Shown here one piece after another: positions 2,371 through 22,958 of a stretch of 30,365 nt of DNA. How positions within the stretch are numbered: the first letter of the stretch is position 1; each line of letters opens with the position of its first letter. The DNA lies in the IMG/VR virus record IMGVR_UViG_3300027741_000191, positions 1 through 30,365 of that record. One strand, written 5' to 3'. Below the pieces are notes generated by a model. The model did no database searches and was not told the origin of the DNA. It saw only the letters and a program-made list of their open reading frames with translations. This DNA comes from a virus. Both the position numbers and the translations under genes were made by a program.

Positions 2371-3981
2371 ATGCCAACCATTGTTCAAGTAAATGTGACG
2401 CAGACGGTTGGCGCAGCGCCCGCCACTCTGCAAAAGACGGGCGCGCTGATCTCCCAAGGCGGGACGACCACCAGCCCGGGCACCGCGACGCTCATCACGC
2501 AGGAAGCCGATCTGACGGCGATCCTGACGGCTCCCGCCCCGCTAACTCAGGTGGTGGTGGCCGGAGCGCTTGTGACAGCCACGACGGTTTCGCCGCATGG
2601 CTATACCGTCGGAAGCCAGATCGTTTTGACGATGGCTGGCATCACCGACGGTGGGTTGGGGCCGTCGGCTTATAACGGCACCTACCTCTGCACCATCACC
2701 AGCACGACGCAATACACCTACAACCTGGGCCAGGAATTGATCTTGGCTTCGGGCACGGGCGGCACATACGTTCCGCAAAGCGCGATCCAGCTTACCGCGA
2801 TGGGCAACACGTTCTTTGCCCAGGGTTCTGGCTTGTCCTGCTATGTGCTGGAGCTTGGGCCGGGCAACACGGAAGATGGCGTGGCCGCGCTGGCCGCATA
2901 CATCCAGGCCAACCCCAACAGCGACTACACGCCCGGCGCGGAAGGCTATTTCTACGCTTACGTTGTGCCGAAACAGTGGGACGGCAACGCGGATTTCCTG
3001 GCCCTGCTAGCGGAATTCGAATCCACCACGGCACGCACCTATTTCTTCATCACAACCACGCTGGCTACCTACAACAGCTACACCAACCTGATGAAGTGCG
3101 CGTTTACGCTGATTGAATCGCCGCAATTCGGCACCTACGGCGCAAACGAACTGATCGGCGCGGTTTGGACATCGGGCGCCATCACGTTCACGACCCTTAA
3201 CACCAGCGGCATTTCTAAAGGCGACTGGTTCACCATCGTGGGCTGCACACCCGCAGAATACAACGGCACTTATCAAGCCGTTGTGGCCAATGGCGTGGAC
3301 ATCACCGCCTATAAGGCGGTTGACCCTGGCGCGCTTACCGTTACCGGCAGCCTCAAGGCCAGCCTGTATGGCAACGCGGGCGCTCCGGTTACGGAATTCA
3401 CGGTGGTGTCCGCCTTCTGGAACTTCCTGGCTTACGAACCCAGCGCAGCGAACCTCGTTGCACCGTTCGCCTTCAAGTATCTTTACGGCGTGACGCCGTT
3501 CCCGACGCGCGGCAACAACGCTCTGCTGACCACGCTCAAGGCCGAAAGTGTCAACGTCGTGGGCACGGGCGCGGAAGGCGGCATCAGCAACACCATCCTG
3601 CTCTGGGGCACCACAATGGATGGCCACGATGCCACTTATTGGTATTCAGTGGACTGGGTGCAGATCAACGTTGACATCGCCATTTCCAACGCGGTGATCA
3701 ACGGTTCGAACAACAGCCAGAACCCGCTGTATTACGACCAGAACGGCATCAACCGGCTTCAGGCGGTAGCGCAAACGGTCATGCGCAACGCCATCTCTTT
3801 TGGCCTCGCGCTCGCGCCCATCACGGTCAATGCGGTGCCGTTTGTGACCTACGTTTCGCAGAATCCGGCGGATTACCCGGCGGGCATTTATCGCGGCCTC
3901 TCGGTCACCTACACGCCGCAGCGCGGCTTCATCCAGATCGTGTTTTACGTCAACGTCTCGTCGTTCCCGGCTGGCGGCTGA
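2371..3981 (+). CDS. Tail sheath protein (DUF3383-type) with two inserted beta domains
   Basis: The product is 536 residues, with ribosome-binding site AGGAGA 7 bases before the ATG. The N-terminus (MPTIVQVNVTQT) and the C-terminus (YTPQRGFIQIVFYVNVSSFPAGG region) match the layout of contractile-sheath proteins of the DUF3383 type; the next gene is tube-like, the usual sheath-tube pair. Two extra beta domains interrupt it. Residues about 59-133 carry HGYTVGS and YNGTYLCTI, and residues about 262-334 carry ISKGDWFTIVG and YNGTYQAVV. Both resemble the small FCCH-like domain seen elsewhere in this window and would probably project from the outer sheath surface. Sheath identity is fairly sure; exposure of the inserts is inference. 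Confidence 0.85.
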   Translation: MPTIVQVNVTQTVGAAPATLQKTGALISQGGTTTSPGTATLITQEADLTAILTAPAPLTQVVVAGALVTATTVSPHGYTVGSQIVLTMAGITDGGLGPSAYNGTYLCTITSTTQYTYNLGQELILASGTGGTYVPQSAIQLTAMGNTFFAQGSGLSCYVLELGPGNTEDGVAALAAYIQANPNSDYTPGAEGYFYAYVVPKQWDGNADFLALLAEFESTTARTYFFITTTLATYNSYTNLMKCAFTLIESPQFGTYGANELIGAVWTSGAITFTTLNTSGISKGDWFTIVGCTPAEYNGTYQAVVANGVDITAYKAVDPGALTVTGSLKASLYGNAGAPVTEFTVVSAFWNFLAYEPSAANLVAPFAFKYLYGVTPFPTRGNNALLTTLKAESVNVVGTGAEGGISNTILLWGTTMDGHDATYWYSVDWVQINVDIAISNAVINGSNNSQNPLYYDQNGINRLQAVAQTVMRNAISFGLALAPITVNAVPFVTYVSQNPADYPAGIYRGLSVTYTPQRGFIQIVFYVNVSSFPAGG

Positions 3982-3997
3982 GTAGGAGAAAACAACC

Positions 3998-4444
3998 ATG
4001 GCAGCTAATCCACAAGTCGCTCAGGGCACGCTCAACCGGTTACGGGGCAGCGTGGTCATTCCGGACTATCCGGCACTGCAAGTCACGGCGCCCTTCCTGG
4101 GGCGCCCTGGCATCGCCATCGCCTTTGAAGGCGAAACGACGACGATGATCCCGACGATGACGGGCACCATCACCTCGCCGTTTCCCTATCAGATGGTGAC
4201 GGTGACCATTTCGCTGCTCAAGACCCAGAACCTTGCGGCTCTCTGGGAGGCGCAGCGTCAGGCGTTGAGCACGATTGGCGACATCACGGTGACGCCCGAC
4301 ACCACGTCGCTTCCGGCTTACACCTTCAACAACTGCGCCATCCAGAATGTGCGTGAGTTGAATTTCGCAGGCGAGGACGCGAGCTATTCCGTCACCGTCA
4401 GCGGCTACTACCAGATCAACAACAACCTCTGGAATCTGGTTTGA
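3998..4444 (+). CDS. Tail tube protein
   Basis: The gene encodes 148 residues with ribosome-binding site GTAGGAGA before the ATG. The pattern is that of myovirus inner-tube subunits: an N-terminal arm (NRLRGSVVIPDYP), beta strands alternating with short turns, a central helix (LAALWEAQRQALSTIGD, residues about 77-93), and a conserved-looking ending NNCAIQNVRELNFAGEDASY ... VSGYYQINNNLW. Position right after the sheath gene, and the following tail-assembly chaperone and tape measure genes, complete the canonical order. The protein would stack as hexameric rings inside the sheath and form the DNA channel. Confidence 0.85.
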   Translation: MAANPQVAQGTLNRLRGSVVIPDYPALQVTAPFLGRPGIAIAFEGETTTMIPTMTGTITSPFPYQMVTVTISLLKTQNLAALWEAQRQALSTIGDITVTPDTTSLPAYTFNNCAIQNVRELNFAGEDASYSVTVSGYYQINNNLWNLV

Positions 4445-4537: not shown

Positions 4538-5107
4538 GTGAAGATTAACAACAAGTTGAATTTGGTAGTTGAAGTCGAAACCAGCGAAGGCACTATCTTC
4601 GTGCATAGCACGCCGCTTTCGCGTGAGGTGTTTGAGCGATATTTCCTGATCATCGGCAAGACGTTCGCCAGCTTGATCAGCGAAGGCTTGAGCTTCGTTT
4701 CTGGTCCGCGCGTGGCGGCTATGATGCTCAGGAAGATTGCTCAGGACGCTGGTGTTTGGGAAGGGCGCGACGGAATTCACAACGGGCTGATGGCTGAAAT
4801 TCGTCGGCTTTCAAGCGTGGTGATTCCTAGCACGTCAGGGTGGGTGACGATGCCTTTCCAAGATGCCATTGACCGGAAAACGATGGACGAAGATGACATT
4901 GCGGAGGTAGAAGGGCTTATCACTTTTTTTATCTGCGCCTCTGCCATGTCCCGGAAAACCGAGATTGGCCCCGTTCTGGAGAGGATGCGTTTGTGGGGTG
5001 CGTTGACCACATTGTTGAACTCTACGGAATACGCCGCCTCATTGCCGACATCGACAACGGAAGACACTTTGGATGCGCCGATGATCACCTCGTCAGTGCC
5101 GCATTAG
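4538..5107 (+). CDS. Tail assembly chaperone, short (zero-frame) product
   Basis: The product is 189 residues from a GTG at 4538, with GAAGGA as the ribosome-binding site about 10 bases upstream. The gene lies between tube and tape measure, the invariable place for the G/GT-type chaperones that coat the tape measure during tail assembly. The C-terminal third (ALTTLLNSTEYAASLPTST ... SSVPH) looks like the usual end of such chaperones. A slippery heptamer at codons 130-131 and an open -1 frame downstream predict a second, longer product. The protein would be present during assembly but absent from the finished virion, as is known for the lambda G/GT system. Confidence 0.8.
   Translation: MKINNKLNLVVEVETSEGTIFVHSTPLSREVFERYFLIIGKTFASLISEGLSFVSGPRVAAMMLRKIAQDAGVWEGRDGIHNGLMAEIRRLSSVVIPSTSGWVTMPFQDAIDRKTMDEDDIAEVEGLITFFICASAMSRKTEIGPVLERMRLWGALTTLLNSTEYAASLPTSTTEDTLDAPMITSSVPH
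4924..4930 (+). promoter_or_regulatory. Programmed -1 frameshift slippery site T TTT TTT
   Basis: Seven T bases sit in the exact X XXY YYZ register of the chaperone frame (codons TTT 4925-4927 and TTT 4928-4930, preceded by T). Slipping back one base moves the ribosome into a frame that stays open from 4930 to the TGA at 5233-5235. This is the expected arrangement for tail-assembly chaperones. Efficiency and any downstream stimulatory structure cannot be judged by eye. Confidence 0.7.
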
Positions 5108-5235
5108 GGTGGGTGGCCGGAGAAGGATTTTACGATTTCTTCGGCAAGCATGTGGATGATTGGCGGTGGGATTCCGTCTCTGAGTTTCGCCAGCGTCACT
5201 TTTCCACGGCGCTGAAACGGATAGGAATGGGTTGA
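4930..5235 (+). CDS. -1 frameshift extension of the tail assembly chaperone (T-like domain)
   Basis: After the slip at 4924-4930 the -1 frame reads 101 codons to a TGA at 5233-5235, giving a fused product of about 232 residues (131 shared and 101 new). The extension past the zero-frame stop contains AALGWVAGEGFYDFF, a DDWRWDS motif and FRQRHFSTALKRIG, which looks like genuine protein. A separate GTG start at 4993 exists but has no convincing ribosome-binding site and lies inside the chaperone gene. The stop is immediately followed by the tape measure ATG at 5236. By analogy with lambda GT, this domain would recruit tube subunits to the tape measure. Confidence 0.7.
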   Translation, partial: YLRLCHVPENRDWPRSGEDAFVGCVDHIVELYGIRRLIADIDNGRHFGCADDHLVSAALGWVAGEGFYDFFGKHVDDWRWDSVSEFRQRHFSTALKRIGMG

Positions 5236-7161
5236 ATGGCGGTCAAGAGCATCATTGATGTCGATGTGAACGACGATGCCTTCAAGGCGTTCATGGAGAT
5301 GTTCGCCAAGTATCAGGCAGCCCTGAAAAAGCTGCCGGGTGCTTGGGATACCGCAAACAAATCCATCAACAAATCCGGTTCCGCCATTGAAGAAATGACG
5401 GACATTATGAGCCGTCAGGTTGATATCATTGACAAGCAAACCAGAGCGCAAGAAAAGATGCGGCGCGAGGTTGAAAAGACTGGCTATTCACTGACCGATG
5501 TTGCTCGCGCTACAACCCGCATAGCGGGCGGCATGAAAGATATAACCCTATCACTGCTTAAGTTTAGCACTCTGACCAGCGCCTTTGGGTTGTTGTCTGG
5601 TGGCACGGGGCTGTTTGGCTTTGAGGCGTTGGCGCGCTCGGCCAGCCAGCAACGCACGCAGTCCATGGGGCTTGGAATTACGCCCGGCCAGCTTCAGGCG
5701 GCAAACATCACTTATGAGCGCATTGGCGGCGCAGAGCCAACGCTTTCCAGCATTGCGGACATGCAGAACGATCTGCGCCAGAGACATCGGCTTCAAATGC
5801 TCGGTATCAGCAACGAAGATATTGACAACAAAAACCCGTTTGAACTTTTGCCGCAAACCTTAAGCGCCATTCGTTCGCGCTATTTGTCTATCCCGGAAAA
5901 CCTTCGCGGCACTTTGGCGCAATCATATGGATTGACTCAATTTGGTCTTTCTATGTCGCAGCTTCGCCAACTCGGGGGAATGTCGGAGCAAGAACTAGCG
6001 GGCCTTGGCACCTCGCTTTCAAGAAACGCAACAACAATTGGCGGCAGTAACGATATAAACCGACGTTATCAAGATTTTTTAGAACAGCTTGGTGTCGCAG
6101 GAGCGCGGCTGCAAACCACCCTGATTGATAAGTTGACACCGCTCGCTAAGCCTCTCGGCAATGTAGTCGATGCTTTCACTAACCTTGCCGCGTCTGCACT
6201 AGGTAGCGATACGTTCCGCAATGGATTAAAAACATTTGCAGATTGGATTAACGATTTTGCCAGCACGCTGAATACCGAAGAAACAAAATCCTCCATCGCT
6301 AATTTCATTGAACAAGTAGGAACTTTTGCAACTCGCATGGCGAACGCCGTCAGAGCAGTAATTTCATTTATTGAAGCTCTACAAGACGCATACGCATGGG
6401 TAAGGGGTTTATTGGGGGGCGATGCGCAAGAGCAAATGGGTCCTCCCAATCCGTATGGTGGTGACGATCCAAATCGTCGAACGCCGACGCCAGACAATCC
6501 TTTGGGCACTCGACGCGGCGTAATTCCACGATATCGCCTTTACGAGCCAATGTCTTACACCTCCGGTGACTATAATACTTTTATCGACCAAATGACGCGC
6601 GCCGAAAGCGGTAGCAGAGATGACGCTCGCAACCTGCGCTCATCAGCTAGTGGGCGGCATCAATTCATCGACGAAACGTGGCTCAGCGTAGCAAGACGGT
6701 TTGGTGGTTCGCGTATTGCCGGAATGTCTGACGAGCAAATTCTTGCGCTACGCTCTGACGCTGATTTTTCACGTCAAATGGCGTTGTCACATACGCAATT
6801 TGATATTGCACCGGAGTTATTGCGCTCTGGAGTGGACCCGACAAATCTTGCTCTTTATGCCGGTTGGCATTTTGGCGGACGGGGCGGCGCCGCAGTTATG
6901 CAAGCGGGCAACGATACTCCAATGAGTCAAATTCTCAGCGCAAAAGCAATTGCAGCCAATCCACACCTGCAAAATTTAACGGCGGGTCAATGGCGCAATA
7001 GGTATTTGGGTCAATTCCCCGGCGGAGGCGAAGGACAGCCCGGAAGGCAAGTGCTTTCCGTTCAGCCTGGACAGGCGGTTCATGTGGTCATTAACGACAA
7101 CACTGGTGGTAACATCGTCAACACGTCGGCTTCGCTCGGCGCTCCGGGGTATTACGGATGA
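5236..7161 (+). CDS. Tape measure protein with C-terminal lytic (lysozyme/transglycosylase-like) domain
   Basis: The product is 641 residues; the ATG follows the frameshift-product stop directly. The N-terminal part is helical (VDIIDKQTRAQEKMRREVEK, residues about 63-82) and then has a hydrophobic section (residues about 110-140), as tape measures do. Residues about 440-600 form a muralytic domain: TRAESG with the likely catalytic Glu457, followed by SASGRHQFIDETWL, the SSA-x-G-x-x-QF-x-x-TW pattern of phage transglycosylases and lysozymes, and YAGWHFGGRGGA. The protein sets tail length and probably opens peptidoglycan during DNA entry. It is short for a tape measure, so a short contractile tail is expected. 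The region is visibly more AT-rich than its neighbours. Confidence 0.85.
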   Translation: MAVKSIIDVDVNDDAFKAFMEMFAKYQAALKKLPGAWDTANKSINKSGSAIEEMTDIMSRQVDIIDKQTRAQEKMRREVEKTGYSLTDVARATTRIAGGMKDITLSLLKFSTLTSAFGLLSGGTGLFGFEALARSASQQRTQSMGLGITPGQLQAANITYERIGGAEPTLSSIADMQNDLRQRHRLQMLGISNEDIDNKNPFELLPQTLSAIRSRYLSIPENLRGTLAQSYGLTQFGLSMSQLRQLGGMSEQELAGLGTSLSRNATTIGGSNDINRRYQDFLEQLGVAGARLQTTLIDKLTPLAKPLGNVVDAFTNLAASALGSDTFRNGLKTFADWINDFASTLNTEETKSSIANFIEQVGTFATRMANAVRAVISFIEALQDAYAWVRGLLGGDAQEQMGPPNPYGGDDPNRRTPTPDNPLGTRRGVIPRYRLYEPMSYTSGDYNTFIDQMTRAESGSRDDARNLRSSASGRHQFIDETWLSVARRFGGSRIAGMSDEQILALRSDADFSRQMALSHTQFDIAPELLRSGVDPTNLALYAGWHFGGRGGAAVMQAGNDTPMSQILSAKAIAANPHLQNLTAGQWRNRYLGQFPGGGEGQPGRQVLSVQPGQAVHVVINDNTGGNIVNTSASLGAPGYYG

Positions 7162-7868
7162 GCATTCTCGACACCATTGGCCGGTCCATTTATCAAGTCG
7201 GTTTCCAGCTTACGCCGATCATTTTGGTGCAAGGCATTGCTAGAAGTTTTCCTGGCGGCATGATGCCTATTATCATTTTAACGGAAGGACCAAACCTCCT
7301 CGTGACCGTGTTGGCTGGCAAAAGCCCCTTTAACCCCGACCGGTTTTTTGCTCACTTTTCCCCCGTTCCCGGCGGGAAATTGGCCAATTTTGCTATTGGT
7401 CAATACCCCTTCGCTAACCAGTCGGTGGCAGCAAACGCGATCATCAGCGAGCCGCTTACTATTTCCATGAAAATGTCTATCCCTGTCAACAAGTCGGGCG
7501 GGCACACGGCGAAGCTGGCCACGATGGTGCTGCTTCAATCCAAGCTCAAAGACCACGCAAACCTGGGCGGAACCTATATCGTCGCAACTCCAGCCGGGTT
7601 TTATACCAATTGCATTTTGACTGGCCTCACAGATGTCAGCACGGGCGATAGCCCGATCCCGCAAAACACATGGCAGTGGGATTTTGTGCAACCCCTCATT
7701 ACGCTGCAAGAAGCAGAAGCCGCACAAAATACGTTCATGAGCAACGCGACCAGCCAATTGCCGTCCGACGGATCGTTGAACGCAACCCCCGGCGGCGTTC
7801 CATCAACATCCGTCCCGGCTTCTCAGGGCACCAATCTACCTGCTGGCGTCCAAGGACCGAACCAATGA
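7158..7868 (+). CDS. Baseplate hub-proximal protein (Dit-like position)
   Basis: The gene encodes 236 residues and starts with ATGA overlap on the tape measure stop. It is a soluble protein with an N-terminal IIILTEGPNLLVTVLAGKSPF segment (residues about 38-58, given by its ends), beta strands and FAHFSPVPGG. A Pro/Ser/Thr-rich tail ends in AGVQGPNQ. The place directly after the tape measure is where the tail-hub or distal-tail protein is encoded in contractile phages. The last eight residues recur at the end of the hub protein ending at 9429, hinting at a shared docking tag. The family name is not certain. Confidence 0.6.
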   Translation: MSILDTIGRSIYQVGFQLTPIILVQGIARSFPGGMMPIIILTEGPNLLVTVLAGKSPFNPDRFFAHFSPVPGGKLANFAIGQYPFANQSVAANAIISEPLTISMKMSIPVNKSGGHTAKLATMVLLQSKLKDHANLGGTYIVATPAGFYTNCILTGLTDVSTGDSPIPQNTWQWDFVQPLITLQEAEAAQNTFMSNATSQLPSDGSLNATPGGVPSTSVPASQGTNLPAGVQGPNQ

Positions 7869-8356
7869 CCACCTATACGGAATTCACGCCGTCCAACACG
7901 CAAGTCTTTACCTTCCAACCTACTTTGGATGGCACCACCTACATCATCACCATTCCGTGGTCTCTTTTTGGCCAGCGGTATTATGTGACGTGCAGAACGC
8001 TTGGCGGCAACCTTGTTTTCTCGCTTCCGCTTATTGGTTCGCCCGCTGGCATCAACGTGCAAGGTGCAACGTGGGAACCGAACAATGCGACCATCACTGT
8101 CGCAACACCTCATGAGCATAAAGTCGGCTCTATCATCAACCTCACTCTTTCAGGCATGGCGCCGGATGTTTACAACGGCACGTTTGCTTGCAAGATCATC
8201 AACGATACGCAATTCACGTTCCCTCTGAATTCTTTTCCCGGGGAAGTCTCCACGCTCGGATCGGTGCAATACAACATTAATCTTGCGGCGGGTTATTTCA
8301 CGACATCCACACTCATTTATCGCCCGCAAAATAAAGTGTTTGAGGTGACGCCGTGA
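7865..8356 (+). CDS. Small baseplate protein with inserted FCCH-like domain
   Basis: The product is 163 residues. The ATG at 7865 overlaps the previous stop (ATGA); longer in-frame readings would lie inside the previous gene. N-terminal residues 1-65 (FQPTLDGTTYIITIPWSLFGQRYY) and C-terminal residues about 140-163 (TSTLIYRPQNKVFEVTP) look like one compact beta protein of the type found between the Dit-like and hub genes of some myoviruses. Residues about 67-138 look inserted: HEHKVGSIINLTLSG and DVYNGTFACKIINDTQFTF match the FCCH-like domain found in the sheath, J-like and fibre proteins here. The baseplate role is inferred from position. Confidence 0.65.
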   Translation: MTTYTEFTPSNTQVFTFQPTLDGTTYIITIPWSLFGQRYYVTCRTLGGNLVFSLPLIGSPAGINVQGATWEPNNATITVATPHEHKVGSIINLTLSGMAPDVYNGTFACKIINDTQFTFPLNSFPGEVSTLGSVQYNINLAAGYFTTSTLIYRPQNKVFEVTP

Positions 8357-12512: not shown

Positions 12513-16649
<4,137 letters not shown>

Positions 16650-16663
16650 TCCAAGAGGACAAA

Positions 16664-16813
16664 ATGGACGACAAGCAAATCACGCTCACCTTCACCGTTG
16701 GGCAGGTCAACCAGCTTCTCGCGCTGCTGGGCGAACTGCCTTTCTACAAATCCGCTGACGCCATCGCTGCCATTAAGGAGCAGGGCAATCAGCAATTGGC
16801 CGCTTCTGAATGA
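16664..16813 (+). CDS. Small phage protein, 49 residues, function unknown
   Basis: A short frame starts at ATG 16664, with AAGAGGAC as ribosome-binding site 5-6 bases upstream, and ends with TGA at 16811-16813. The sequence begins MDDKQITLTFTVGQVNQLLALLG and continues with a helix rich in Ala, Ile and Gln, ending QQLAASE. The first part is a strand followed by an amphipathic helix. The stop overlaps the next gene's ATG (ATGA at 16810). Good start signals at both ends argue that it is translated. Small proteins of this type occur next to phage fibre genes, but I know of no function. Confidence 0.7.
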   Translation: MDDKQITLTFTVGQVNQLLALLGELPFYKSADAIAAIKEQGNQQLAASE

Positions 16814-17208
16814 TCGTTTCGGATAACAGGTTGATCAGCATCGTTCCGCCCTGGCAGCCAAGATATGTCTGGCCGGTTTCGGAGCCTGATGACAGCCTGG
16901 ATTATTCGCTGGACATCTCCGCCGTCCTGGCCGACGCAGAGGACACGGTGGATTATGCCACCGCCTCCGTCGCGCCATCAGGGGCAGGGGAACTGATGGC
17001 GGAGAGAATCACCTACGCCAATGGCGTAGTGGCGGTTTGGCTGGCGAACGGTGCGGTGGGACGGCTATATAGCGTCAACGTCAAGGTATATTGTGTATCG
17101 GGACGTGAATTCTCGTTCTTCATCGACCTGCCAATCAGCTATAACACCTTAGTGATTCCGCCCGGCCCGCCGCCATCGCCATATTATAGCACTCCCATTT
17201 CGACCTGA
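16810..17208 (+). CDS. Phage fibre-tail adaptor protein, single domain
   Basis: The product is 132 residues and starts by ATGA overlap. The core (SLDYSLDISAVLAD, VAPSGAGEL, VWLANGAVGRLYSVNVKV, GREFSFFIDLPIS) has the pattern of fibre-tail adaptor proteins: a strand, the PSGAGEL turn, a W/F-x-x-G-x-x-GR-x-Y-x-V motif and GR-x-FS. The same domain occurs twice in the 306-residue protein at 18855-19775. A Pro-rich tail (IPPGPPPSPYY) may be a flexible linker. It would connect a fibre to the tail or join fibres. The family call is from motif memory, not from a search. Confidence 0.7.
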   Translation: MIVSDNRLISIVPPWQPRYVWPVSEPDDSLDYSLDISAVLADAEDTVDYATASVAPSGAGELMAERITYANGVVAVWLANGAVGRLYSVNVKVYCVSGREFSFFIDLPISYNTLVIPPGPPPSPYYSTPIST

Positions 17209-17619: not shown

Positions 17620-17874
17620 ATGCCACTTGAAAAAGGCAAAAGCCAAGAGACCATTTCGCGCAACATCAAGCGCGAGATGGAAGCCGGTAAGCCGCAGAAG
17701 CAGGCGGTAGCCATCGCGCTGCGCGCTGCTGGCGCACCAAAGCCTGATGCCATCCATTCCTATATGGATTCCGTGCGGGCAGGAAAACCCTGTTGGGCGG
17801 GCTATGAAGCATTCGGCACTAAAAAAAAGGACGGCAAAACTGTTCCTAACTGCGTTCCGATGAGGGCAAAATGA
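17620..17874 (+). CDS. Small basic phage protein (DUF6496-like)
   Basis: The product is 84 residues, starting at ATG 17620 with only a weak ribosome-binding site, 7 bases after the previous stop. It is strongly basic, with [38 protein letters not shown] split over the N-terminal half. That is the K-G-x-S-x-x-x-I-x-x-N-I pattern with a KQAVAIAL helix common in small phage proteins. The second half has two Cys residues (KPCWAGY, VPNCVP). It ends by ATGA overlap with the next fibre gene. A DNA- or RNA-binding or head-associated role has been suggested for such proteins, but nothing here decides it. Confidence 0.7.
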
Positions 17875-18854
17875 GCCAACTTCTCTGGGCGAACAACGCC
17901 TCCTCCGTCACGGTAGGCGCCATCGCCTACAATGACAGCACGGTCACGCTTTCTGCCGGGACGGGCGCGGAATTCCCGGTGCCAAATTCCGCATATCAAT
18001 ATTTTTTGGCGACGCTTTCGCCCGCGACCCCAGGCGCGCAAGACCCTGAAATTGTCAGGGTGACGGCGGTTTCAGGCGACACGTTCACTATTGTGCGAGG
18101 CCAAGAAGGAACTGACCCACAAGCGTGGGCTTCCGGCTCCATTATCCAGAACCTGATCACAAAGGGGACGCTCAATGCATTATCTCAAATGGTTGTTTAC
18201 GCAGGCAATCCAAACGGGAATGTGGCTGGCGCTACTGGCGTTGCAGGCGTGCCTCCTTCTATGGTTTGGGATAGCACGAACAGTCTTATATGGGTTTGCA
18301 CAGGCTCAGGAAATGCTGCAACGGCTTCGTGGGCGGCTCAAGCGCCGCTGAACAGCCCGGCTTTCACCGGCAACCCAACTGCTACCACGCAAACGCTTTC
18401 CGACAACTCGACGCGGTTGTCCACTACGGCGTTCGTGCAGGGCATCGCCGCGACCAAGGCCAATTTGGCAGGCTCCGCCGGGCAGCTATTCAGCGTGGCT
18501 TCCGCCGTCTCCAACGCCAATGCGGTGAATCTCGGGCAATTCCCGGCCACGCTCATTTCCACTCCGGGCAGCGCCACGTTGCCAAGCGGTCTCATCATCA
18601 AATGGGGCGTGGTTAATATCGTGAACGGTCCCAACATTGTTACTTTTAACGCGCCATTTCCGAATGCGTGTTTTCAGGTGGTGGTTTGCGAAGGCGCCGC
18701 TAACAACGCAACTTGGGGAGCGGGACTGCCCACCATCCATGGCGTTTCCGCGCGGAATCTGGCTGACTATACGGGGTGGGCGTCCTACTGGAATGGCACG
18801 CTGTGGATTTCTAGCGGGTCTATCACCCAGAGCTACATCGCCGTCGGCTGGTAA
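17871..18854 (+). CDS. Tail fibre protein with gp53-like C-terminal receptor-binding domain
   Basis: The product is 327 residues, coupled by ATGA. The N-terminal domain (residues about 1-105) has [22 protein letters not shown], the typical attachment domain of phage fibres (residues given by segment). A linker repeat region follows ([23 protein letters not shown]). The C-terminal 90 residues start with [10 protein letters not shown] and [16 protein letters not shown] and finish [11 protein letters not shown], the gp53-like fibre tip pattern (SGLIIQWG ... FP ... Y-x-A-x-GW). It probably forms a trimeric fibre that contacts the host surface. The preceding and following genes are fibre-tail adaptors. 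Confidence 0.82.
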
Positions 18855-19775
18855 ATGACGGATTTCGCCCGCACCGTCGTCGTTGATGTGCTGGGAAAGA
18901 ACTTCTTGCAATGGCCGACTGCGCACCTCGGCCAGGAACTAGATTATTTTGTCAACGCCTCGGCGCCGCTGGCTTATGATCTGCTGGCGTCGGTGTCGGT
19001 GTCCGTCTCGCCGTCAGGCACGGGCGAATTGCAGGTTGTCGATGTGACGGTGACGGGTTCCACCATTCGGGTAAAATTTTCGGGCGGCGTGGCTGGGCGC
19101 GTGTATCGAGTGCGCGTTGATACCGTGACGGAGATTGGCCGGGAATTCTCGTGGGTTCCGGTTCTGCCGTTCTCTGAAGAGGGCGCGATCCCGCCTTTGC
19201 CCATTCCGCCCGTCGCGGATTTCGGCACGCCGTTTGTGTGGACCTACTCCGGCCCCGTGCGGCCACTTCCACCGCAGCCAGTGCGCGTCCCTGCAACATT
19301 CACGGGCGCTCCATTCGTGGCGCGCATGACCACGATCAACCCGAGTGGGCAGGTATTTTTGCAATGGCCAATAGGCGAGGCTAACCAACAACTTGATTAT
19401 TATCTCGACACCGTGGCAGCGATCTACCAAGACGGTGACGAAATCTCCAGCCTTCGCATCAGCGTCGCGCCTTCCGGCGCGGGCGAATTGACCATTTCCG
19501 ATGTGTCGATGGACCTAGGCATCATTCGGCTGGATTTCACGGGCGGCATTCCGGGGCGGCTCTATCGAGTTCGTATTGACGTGAACACGCTGCTGGGGCG
19601 CGACTATTCTTGGGTGGTCAACCTGCCGATCAGCCGGGAATACGCAGTGGGTCCGTTCCCCGTTGCTCCCAATCCTGACTTCGGGGAGATAGCCACATGG
19701 GCTATGATTGTGCTAGAAAACGGTAGGGGCTTCTGGCGATTGGAAAACGACCTGGGCAACTGGATATGGGGCTGA
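18855..19775 (+). CDS. Double fibre-tail adaptor protein (two tandem domains)
   Basis: The product is 306 residues; the ATG follows the previous TAA directly. Two homologous domains are plain: residues about 15-105 (FLQWPTAHLGQELDYFV, VSPSGTGEL, GGVAGRVYRVRVDTVTEIGREFSW) and about 167-260 (FLQWPIGEANQQLDYYL, VAPSGAGEL, GGIPGRLYRVRIDVNTLLGRDYSW). A Pro-rich hinge (residues about 112-150) separates them, and a Trp-rich tail (GFWRLENDLGNWIWG) ends the protein. Together with the single-domain protein at 16810-17208 this makes three adaptor copies. The duplication could let one adaptor hold two fibres, for example those encoded on either side. That is inference. Confidence 0.75.
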   Translation: MTDFARTVVVDVLGKNFLQWPTAHLGQELDYFVNASAPLAYDLLASVSVSVSPSGTGELQVVDVTVTGSTIRVKFSGGVAGRVYRVRVDTVTEIGREFSWVPVLPFSEEGAIPPLPIPPVADFGTPFVWTYSGPVRPLPPQPVRVPATFTGAPFVARMTTINPSGQVFLQWPIGEANQQLDYYLDTVAAIYQDGDEISSLRISVAPSGAGELTISDVSMDLGIIRLDFTGGIPGRLYRVRIDVNTLLGRDYSWVVNLPISREYAVGPFPVAPNPDFGEIATWAMIVLENGRGFWRLENDLGNWIWG

Positions 19776-19778
19776 TAG

Positions 19779-22957
<3,179 letters not shown>

Positions 22958-22958
<1 letters not shown>

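Follow-up and report, generated by a model that had tools for sequence, protein, structure and literature searches.

The window, a 30,365-nt stretch of viral DNA, carries on its forward strand a tail sheath gene, a probable tail tube gene (assigned from its place behind the sheath), a gene that very likely encodes a tail assembly chaperone, and a tape-measure gene, in that order (Table 1). Downstream of the major tail genes and directly upstream of the tape-measure gene, two reading frames overlap. Comparison of the first 15 kb with named phages revealed no near DNA match. Likewise, family searches with the window proteins gave no match naming a chaperone for the zero-frame product, and comparison of its predicted fold with the PDB gave nothing significant. 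Among predicted viral structures, weak matches were detected to several annotated tail assembly chaperones (best E 6.9e-3) as well as to a "pre-tape measure frameshift protein G". The chaperone identity, which the initial annotation had proposed, is thus supported by gene order and weak fold matches rather than by a named family match.

Table 1. Features at and around the overlapping frames
Feature	Coordinates	Strand	Basis
Tail sheath gene	2371..3981	+	phrog_205 tail sheath, 4.5e-30
Probable tail tube gene	3998..4444	+	phrog_6566 (function unassigned there), 3.3e-51; position behind sheath
Very likely tail assembly chaperone, zero-frame short form, 189 aa, GTG start	4538..5107	+	ORF; phrog_11810 (E 1.7e-46, residues 1-186); AlphaFold2 pLDDT 84
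Purine-rich Shine-Dalgarno-like tract GGAGGTAGAAGGG, upstream of slip; possible stimulator	4902..4916	+	anti-SD pairing to -10.9 kcal/mol
Slippery heptamer T_TTT_TTT	4924..4930	+	sequence, zero-frame register (codons 129-131); conserved in relatives
Open -1 frame following the slip (101 codons and a stop codon); C-terminal domain of the predicted 232-aa long form	4930..5235	+	phrog_14324, E 5e-7
Dual-coded overlap, 58 zero-frame codons plus stop	4931..5107	+	wobble divergence about halved in both frames
Tape-measure / transglycosylase-like gene	5236..7161	+	phrog_9570 tape measure, 3.4e-7; phrog_4067 transglycosylase, 7.8e-12

Several other features of the window were noted. Just beyond the tape measure, the ORFs 7158-7868 and 7670-8356 have a listed overlap of 199 nt; the phrog_8737 match of the second ORF starts only at residue 66, suggesting that its true start is probably near 7862. 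Three genes (12513-16649, 17871-18854 and 19779-22958) match tail fibre or tail spike families, and the end of phrog_4137 is matched twice, by the genes at 16810-17208 and at 18855-19775; together these matches give the impression of a tail-fibre region that is repeated or mosaic. At the end of the tail-gene window, the second half of the gene at 27910-29601 matches a phage beta-1,4-glycosyltransferase family (phrog_13126, 9e-95).

The slippery heptamer and its conservation

The zero frame reads ACT TTT TTT ATC across the heptamer, which places it in the X_XXY_YYZ register exactly as claimed in the initial annotation. In the -1 frame, the stop codon at 4894 is followed by no other until 5233, and this frame is open up to the base before the tape-measure ATG. 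The products computed from the two frames, 189 aa for the zero frame (stop codon 5105-5107) and 232 aa for the fusion, agree with the 189 and about 232 residues predicted initially. Their C-termini differ over 58 residues in the short form and 101 in the long form, a replacement rather than an extension, as had also been proposed, and this arrangement proved to be conserved.

The T7 run is not in itself informative, given that five such runs were found on the two strands of the window and 5.4 were expected. We therefore rejected T7 rarity as evidence and built the case on register, context and conservation. When in-register XXXYYYZ sites in the forward genes of the window were scanned for a -1 frame of at least 25 codons extending beyond the zero-frame stop, such an opening was found only at T_TTT_TTT and at two CCCGGGC sites, both in the gene at 1947-2336. 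Elsewhere, an A8 run at 17821-17829 places A_AAA_AAG in the zero-frame register of the gene at 17620-17874; the -1 frame stops after six codons there, and a slip would merely exchange the end of that protein.

Protein searches of named phages, of viral contigs and of one genome collection yielded ~97 intact, non-identical loci with protein identities down to 23%. As one search pattern included Phe-Phe, further scans were restricted to the part upstream of the slip, and relatives found with these upstream-only queries carry the T_TTT_TTT arrangement too. Two loci with disrupted zero frames (L101 and L126) were left out of the counts. Compared with its close relative L100, L101 (Kluyvera chromosome CP022114.1, 3001-3482) has a broken zero frame, reflecting either a decayed prophage gene or a sequencing error.

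T_TTT_TTT was present in identical register in 88 of the ~97 relatives, which excludes chance and provides the conservation in related phages that the initial annotation had named as a check. A product of T7 probabilities over loci was not used, since the relatives are not independent. Seven further relatives show N_TTT_TTT, the first base being C in L033, A in L110 and G in L097, L098, L113, L118 and L122, and two (L037 and L047) have T_TTT only. The -1 frame is open in all ~97, including these nine without the full heptamer. The G_TTT_TTT clade, which includes Serratia genomes, is a natural variant of the slip site with the -1 frame still open. In the 72 relatives measured, the tape-measure start lies -34 to +10 nt from the -1 stop. 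Both frames have protein relatives, likewise overlapping, among the phages of Yersinia, Klebsiella, Pantoea and Shewanella; the Yersinia phages have contractile tails by electron microscopy (PMC9224151). Further matches of the zero frame were to Escherichia phage Rac-SA53 and to an Actinobacillus phage, and the -1 ORF is found there as well.

Homopolymer runs are prone to sequencing error and the window is a contig from a virus collection, so that one continuous gene might have been split by an error in the T-run during sequencing or assembly. We give this explanation practically no weight, as the arrangement is repeated in ~96 further loci, among them complete phage genomes and the chromosome of E. 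coli W, whose prophage has the identical heptamer, an intact T-run and an intact 101-aa -1 ORF; in addition, the zero-frame C-terminus is itself under selection (see below). Another explanation is transcriptional slippage, whereby RNA polymerase would add U on the T-run and a share of the mRNAs would encode the long form directly. A homopolymer of seven, extended to eight in 57 of the 72 relatives measured, is in keeping with this. However, no run among the 72 exceeds eight, the clade of the window itself has only seven T's, and seven relatives have six and two have four, with the -1 frame still open. Slippage by the polymerase also needs no register, yet the register for tandem tRNA slippage is kept throughout, although it is partly fixed by the Phe-Phe codons alone. 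Taken together, these observations make a transcriptional origin of the long form quite unlikely, and we favor slippage by the ribosome.

Selection on both frames

Selection on the overlap was examined using wobble divergence, computed for all pairs of relatives as well as for 29 disjoint pairs. For the zero frame, divergence in the overlap relative to the upstream zero-only part was 0.54 (95% 0.48-0.60) in the disjoint pairs; for the -1 frame, whose wobble position inside the overlap is zero-frame position 2, divergence in the overlap relative to the -1-only part was 0.53 (0.48-0.58). This approximate halving in each frame indicates that both frames are under selection. When codons were redrawn keeping one protein, the other frame was open in 19% (zero) and 5.5% (-1) of draws on average; the observed value was 48 of 48 loci. 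Alignment of the -1 frame from 48 relatives revealed the invariant residues Y1, Y32, G66 and R87.

The -1 frame could in principle be a separate gene with an internal start, at GTG 4993 in the window or, in some relatives, at an ATG just behind the heptamer. GTG 4993, codon 22 of the -1 frame, does have a good Shine-Dalgarno match, and many enterobacterial loci carry an ATG at -1 codon 2, the position where phrog_14324 begins. The window, however, has CTG at codon 2, and the NTG at codon 22 or 23 is created by a Trp codon of the zero frame (N|TGG, seen as NTG in the -1 frame), being missing where that Trp is replaced, for example in a clade with Tyr. Four relatives (L014-L016 and L096) have no start codon anywhere in the -1 frame and others have only late ones, with no start codon conserved in this frame among the relatives. 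Moreover, conservation of the -1 frame begins at the first codon behind the slip (the invariant Y1), upstream of GTG 4993. An independently initiated -1 gene is thus very improbable. The initial annotation would have been refuted by relatives lacking the heptamer or by a separate -1 gene with its own start, and we found neither case; the reading with which we proceed is a -1 frameshift.

Proposed mechanism and predicted products

We propose, with high confidence, that the product of 4538-5107 is the tail assembly chaperone of a phage with a contractile tail, made in a short form and a -1-frameshifted long form. The majority of ribosomes would read straight through to give the 189-aa protein, while a minority would move back by one base at U_UUU_UUU (the two Phe codons 130-131) and complete translation in the -1 frame; the resulting protein would have shared residues 1-131 and a different C-terminal domain that is probably helical. 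If lambda G/GT is taken as the model, the region common to both forms may bind the tape-measure protein, tube subunits may be recruited by the -1 domain, and the short form would be the more abundant one.

The most likely route is slippage of tandem Phe-tRNAs on U_UUU_UUU, perhaps aided by the Shine-Dalgarno-like tract upstream, a possible stimulator. Average pairing exceeded that at most other positions (3 of 270 equally good), and across loci the pairing was slightly above that after synonymous resampling (1 of 200 sets equally good); for the window alone, 27% of resamples matched it. Downstream of the slip, the RNA fold was weak (z -0.92) and the consensus consisted mostly of invariant pairs with little covariation, and we therefore do not claim a downstream stimulatory structure. 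E. coli work cited in a review (PMC5009743) found U_UUU_UUU to be less prone to shifting than A_AAA_AAG. At the N_TTT_TTT sites of seven relatives, full re-pairing could still be possible for the A-site tRNA, with a single mismatch for the P-site tRNA. Retention of the -1 frame in the nine relatives without the full heptamer suggests that the heptamer is not strictly required or that slippage there is different, and these loci offer natural variants for asking how much of the heptamer is needed.

AlphaFold2 predicted the zero-frame protein to be folded to about residue 172, with residues 173-189 disordered. The slip (F130-F131) falls inside a predicted helix (118-137), such that ~41 folded residues of the short form would be replaced, not extended, and the long form is predicted to be without them. 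The -1 domain was predicted, with low confidence (pLDDT 64), to be helical from its residue 18. The distance from the slip to the zero-frame stop is 53-77 codons across relatives. We lean towards the view that the two products are alternatives to each other, each having a C-terminal domain of its own under separate selection and both domains being drawn from this one stretch, and that the folded C-terminus of the short form does a job impossible for the long form.

Comparison with known frameshifted tail genes

The zero-frame protein corresponds to PHROG 11810 and the -1 domain to PHROG 14324, listed in PHROGs as two separate families of unknown function; on our reading, both would gain a probable function and be joined in a single gene model. 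The frameshift is unannotated in the eight named phage records inspected and in the E. coli W prophage, and a literature search conducted without the Xu et al. (2004) survey of tail-gene frameshifts found no description of it. Annotations of named phages and of E. coli prophages, including that of laboratory strain W, could be corrected on this basis. On this reading the locus is, in addition, a clear natural example of long dual coding maintained by a frameshift, and what the C-terminus of the chaperone itself does is testable in it.

Frameshifting by -1 in tail assembly chaperones is established (PMC5009743). The locus resembles lambda G/GT in the direction of the proposed shift, the X_XXY_YYZ heptamer and the location of the gene immediately before the tape measure, at whose start the -1 frame ends, the order matching lambda V-G-H. 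It resembles P2 E/E+E' in the contractile tail, the -1 shift, the T-rich heptamer (TTTTTTG in P2) and the order sheath, tube, chaperone and tape measure (P2 FI-FII-E-T), although no P2-type family was matched in family searches of the window proteins. The initial annotation had called the signal textbook, which holds for the heptamer but not for the overlap, about eight to nine times the length of that in lambda or P2. In lambda, the heptamer is GGGAAAG and the overlap 19 nt, and GT is consequently nearly G plus a domain; in P2, the overlap is 22 nt and E has 91 aa. Here, the heptamer is T_TTT_TTT, the short form has 189 aa and the overlap is 163-235 nt in relatives and 178 nt in the window, bearing out the suggestion that the slip comes earlier than in lambda G. 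In these two yardsticks the slip falls close to where the short gene ends and the long form extends the short one, which is a usual feature and not a strict definition; at this locus the slip lies 53-77 codons from the end, as against 19-22 nt, and, unlike in lambda, the long form would lack a conserved stretch that is predicted to be folded in the short form. Very probably, then, the mechanism is the known G/GT-type chaperone frameshift, and the long dual-coded overlap is what is unusual compared with lambda and P2.
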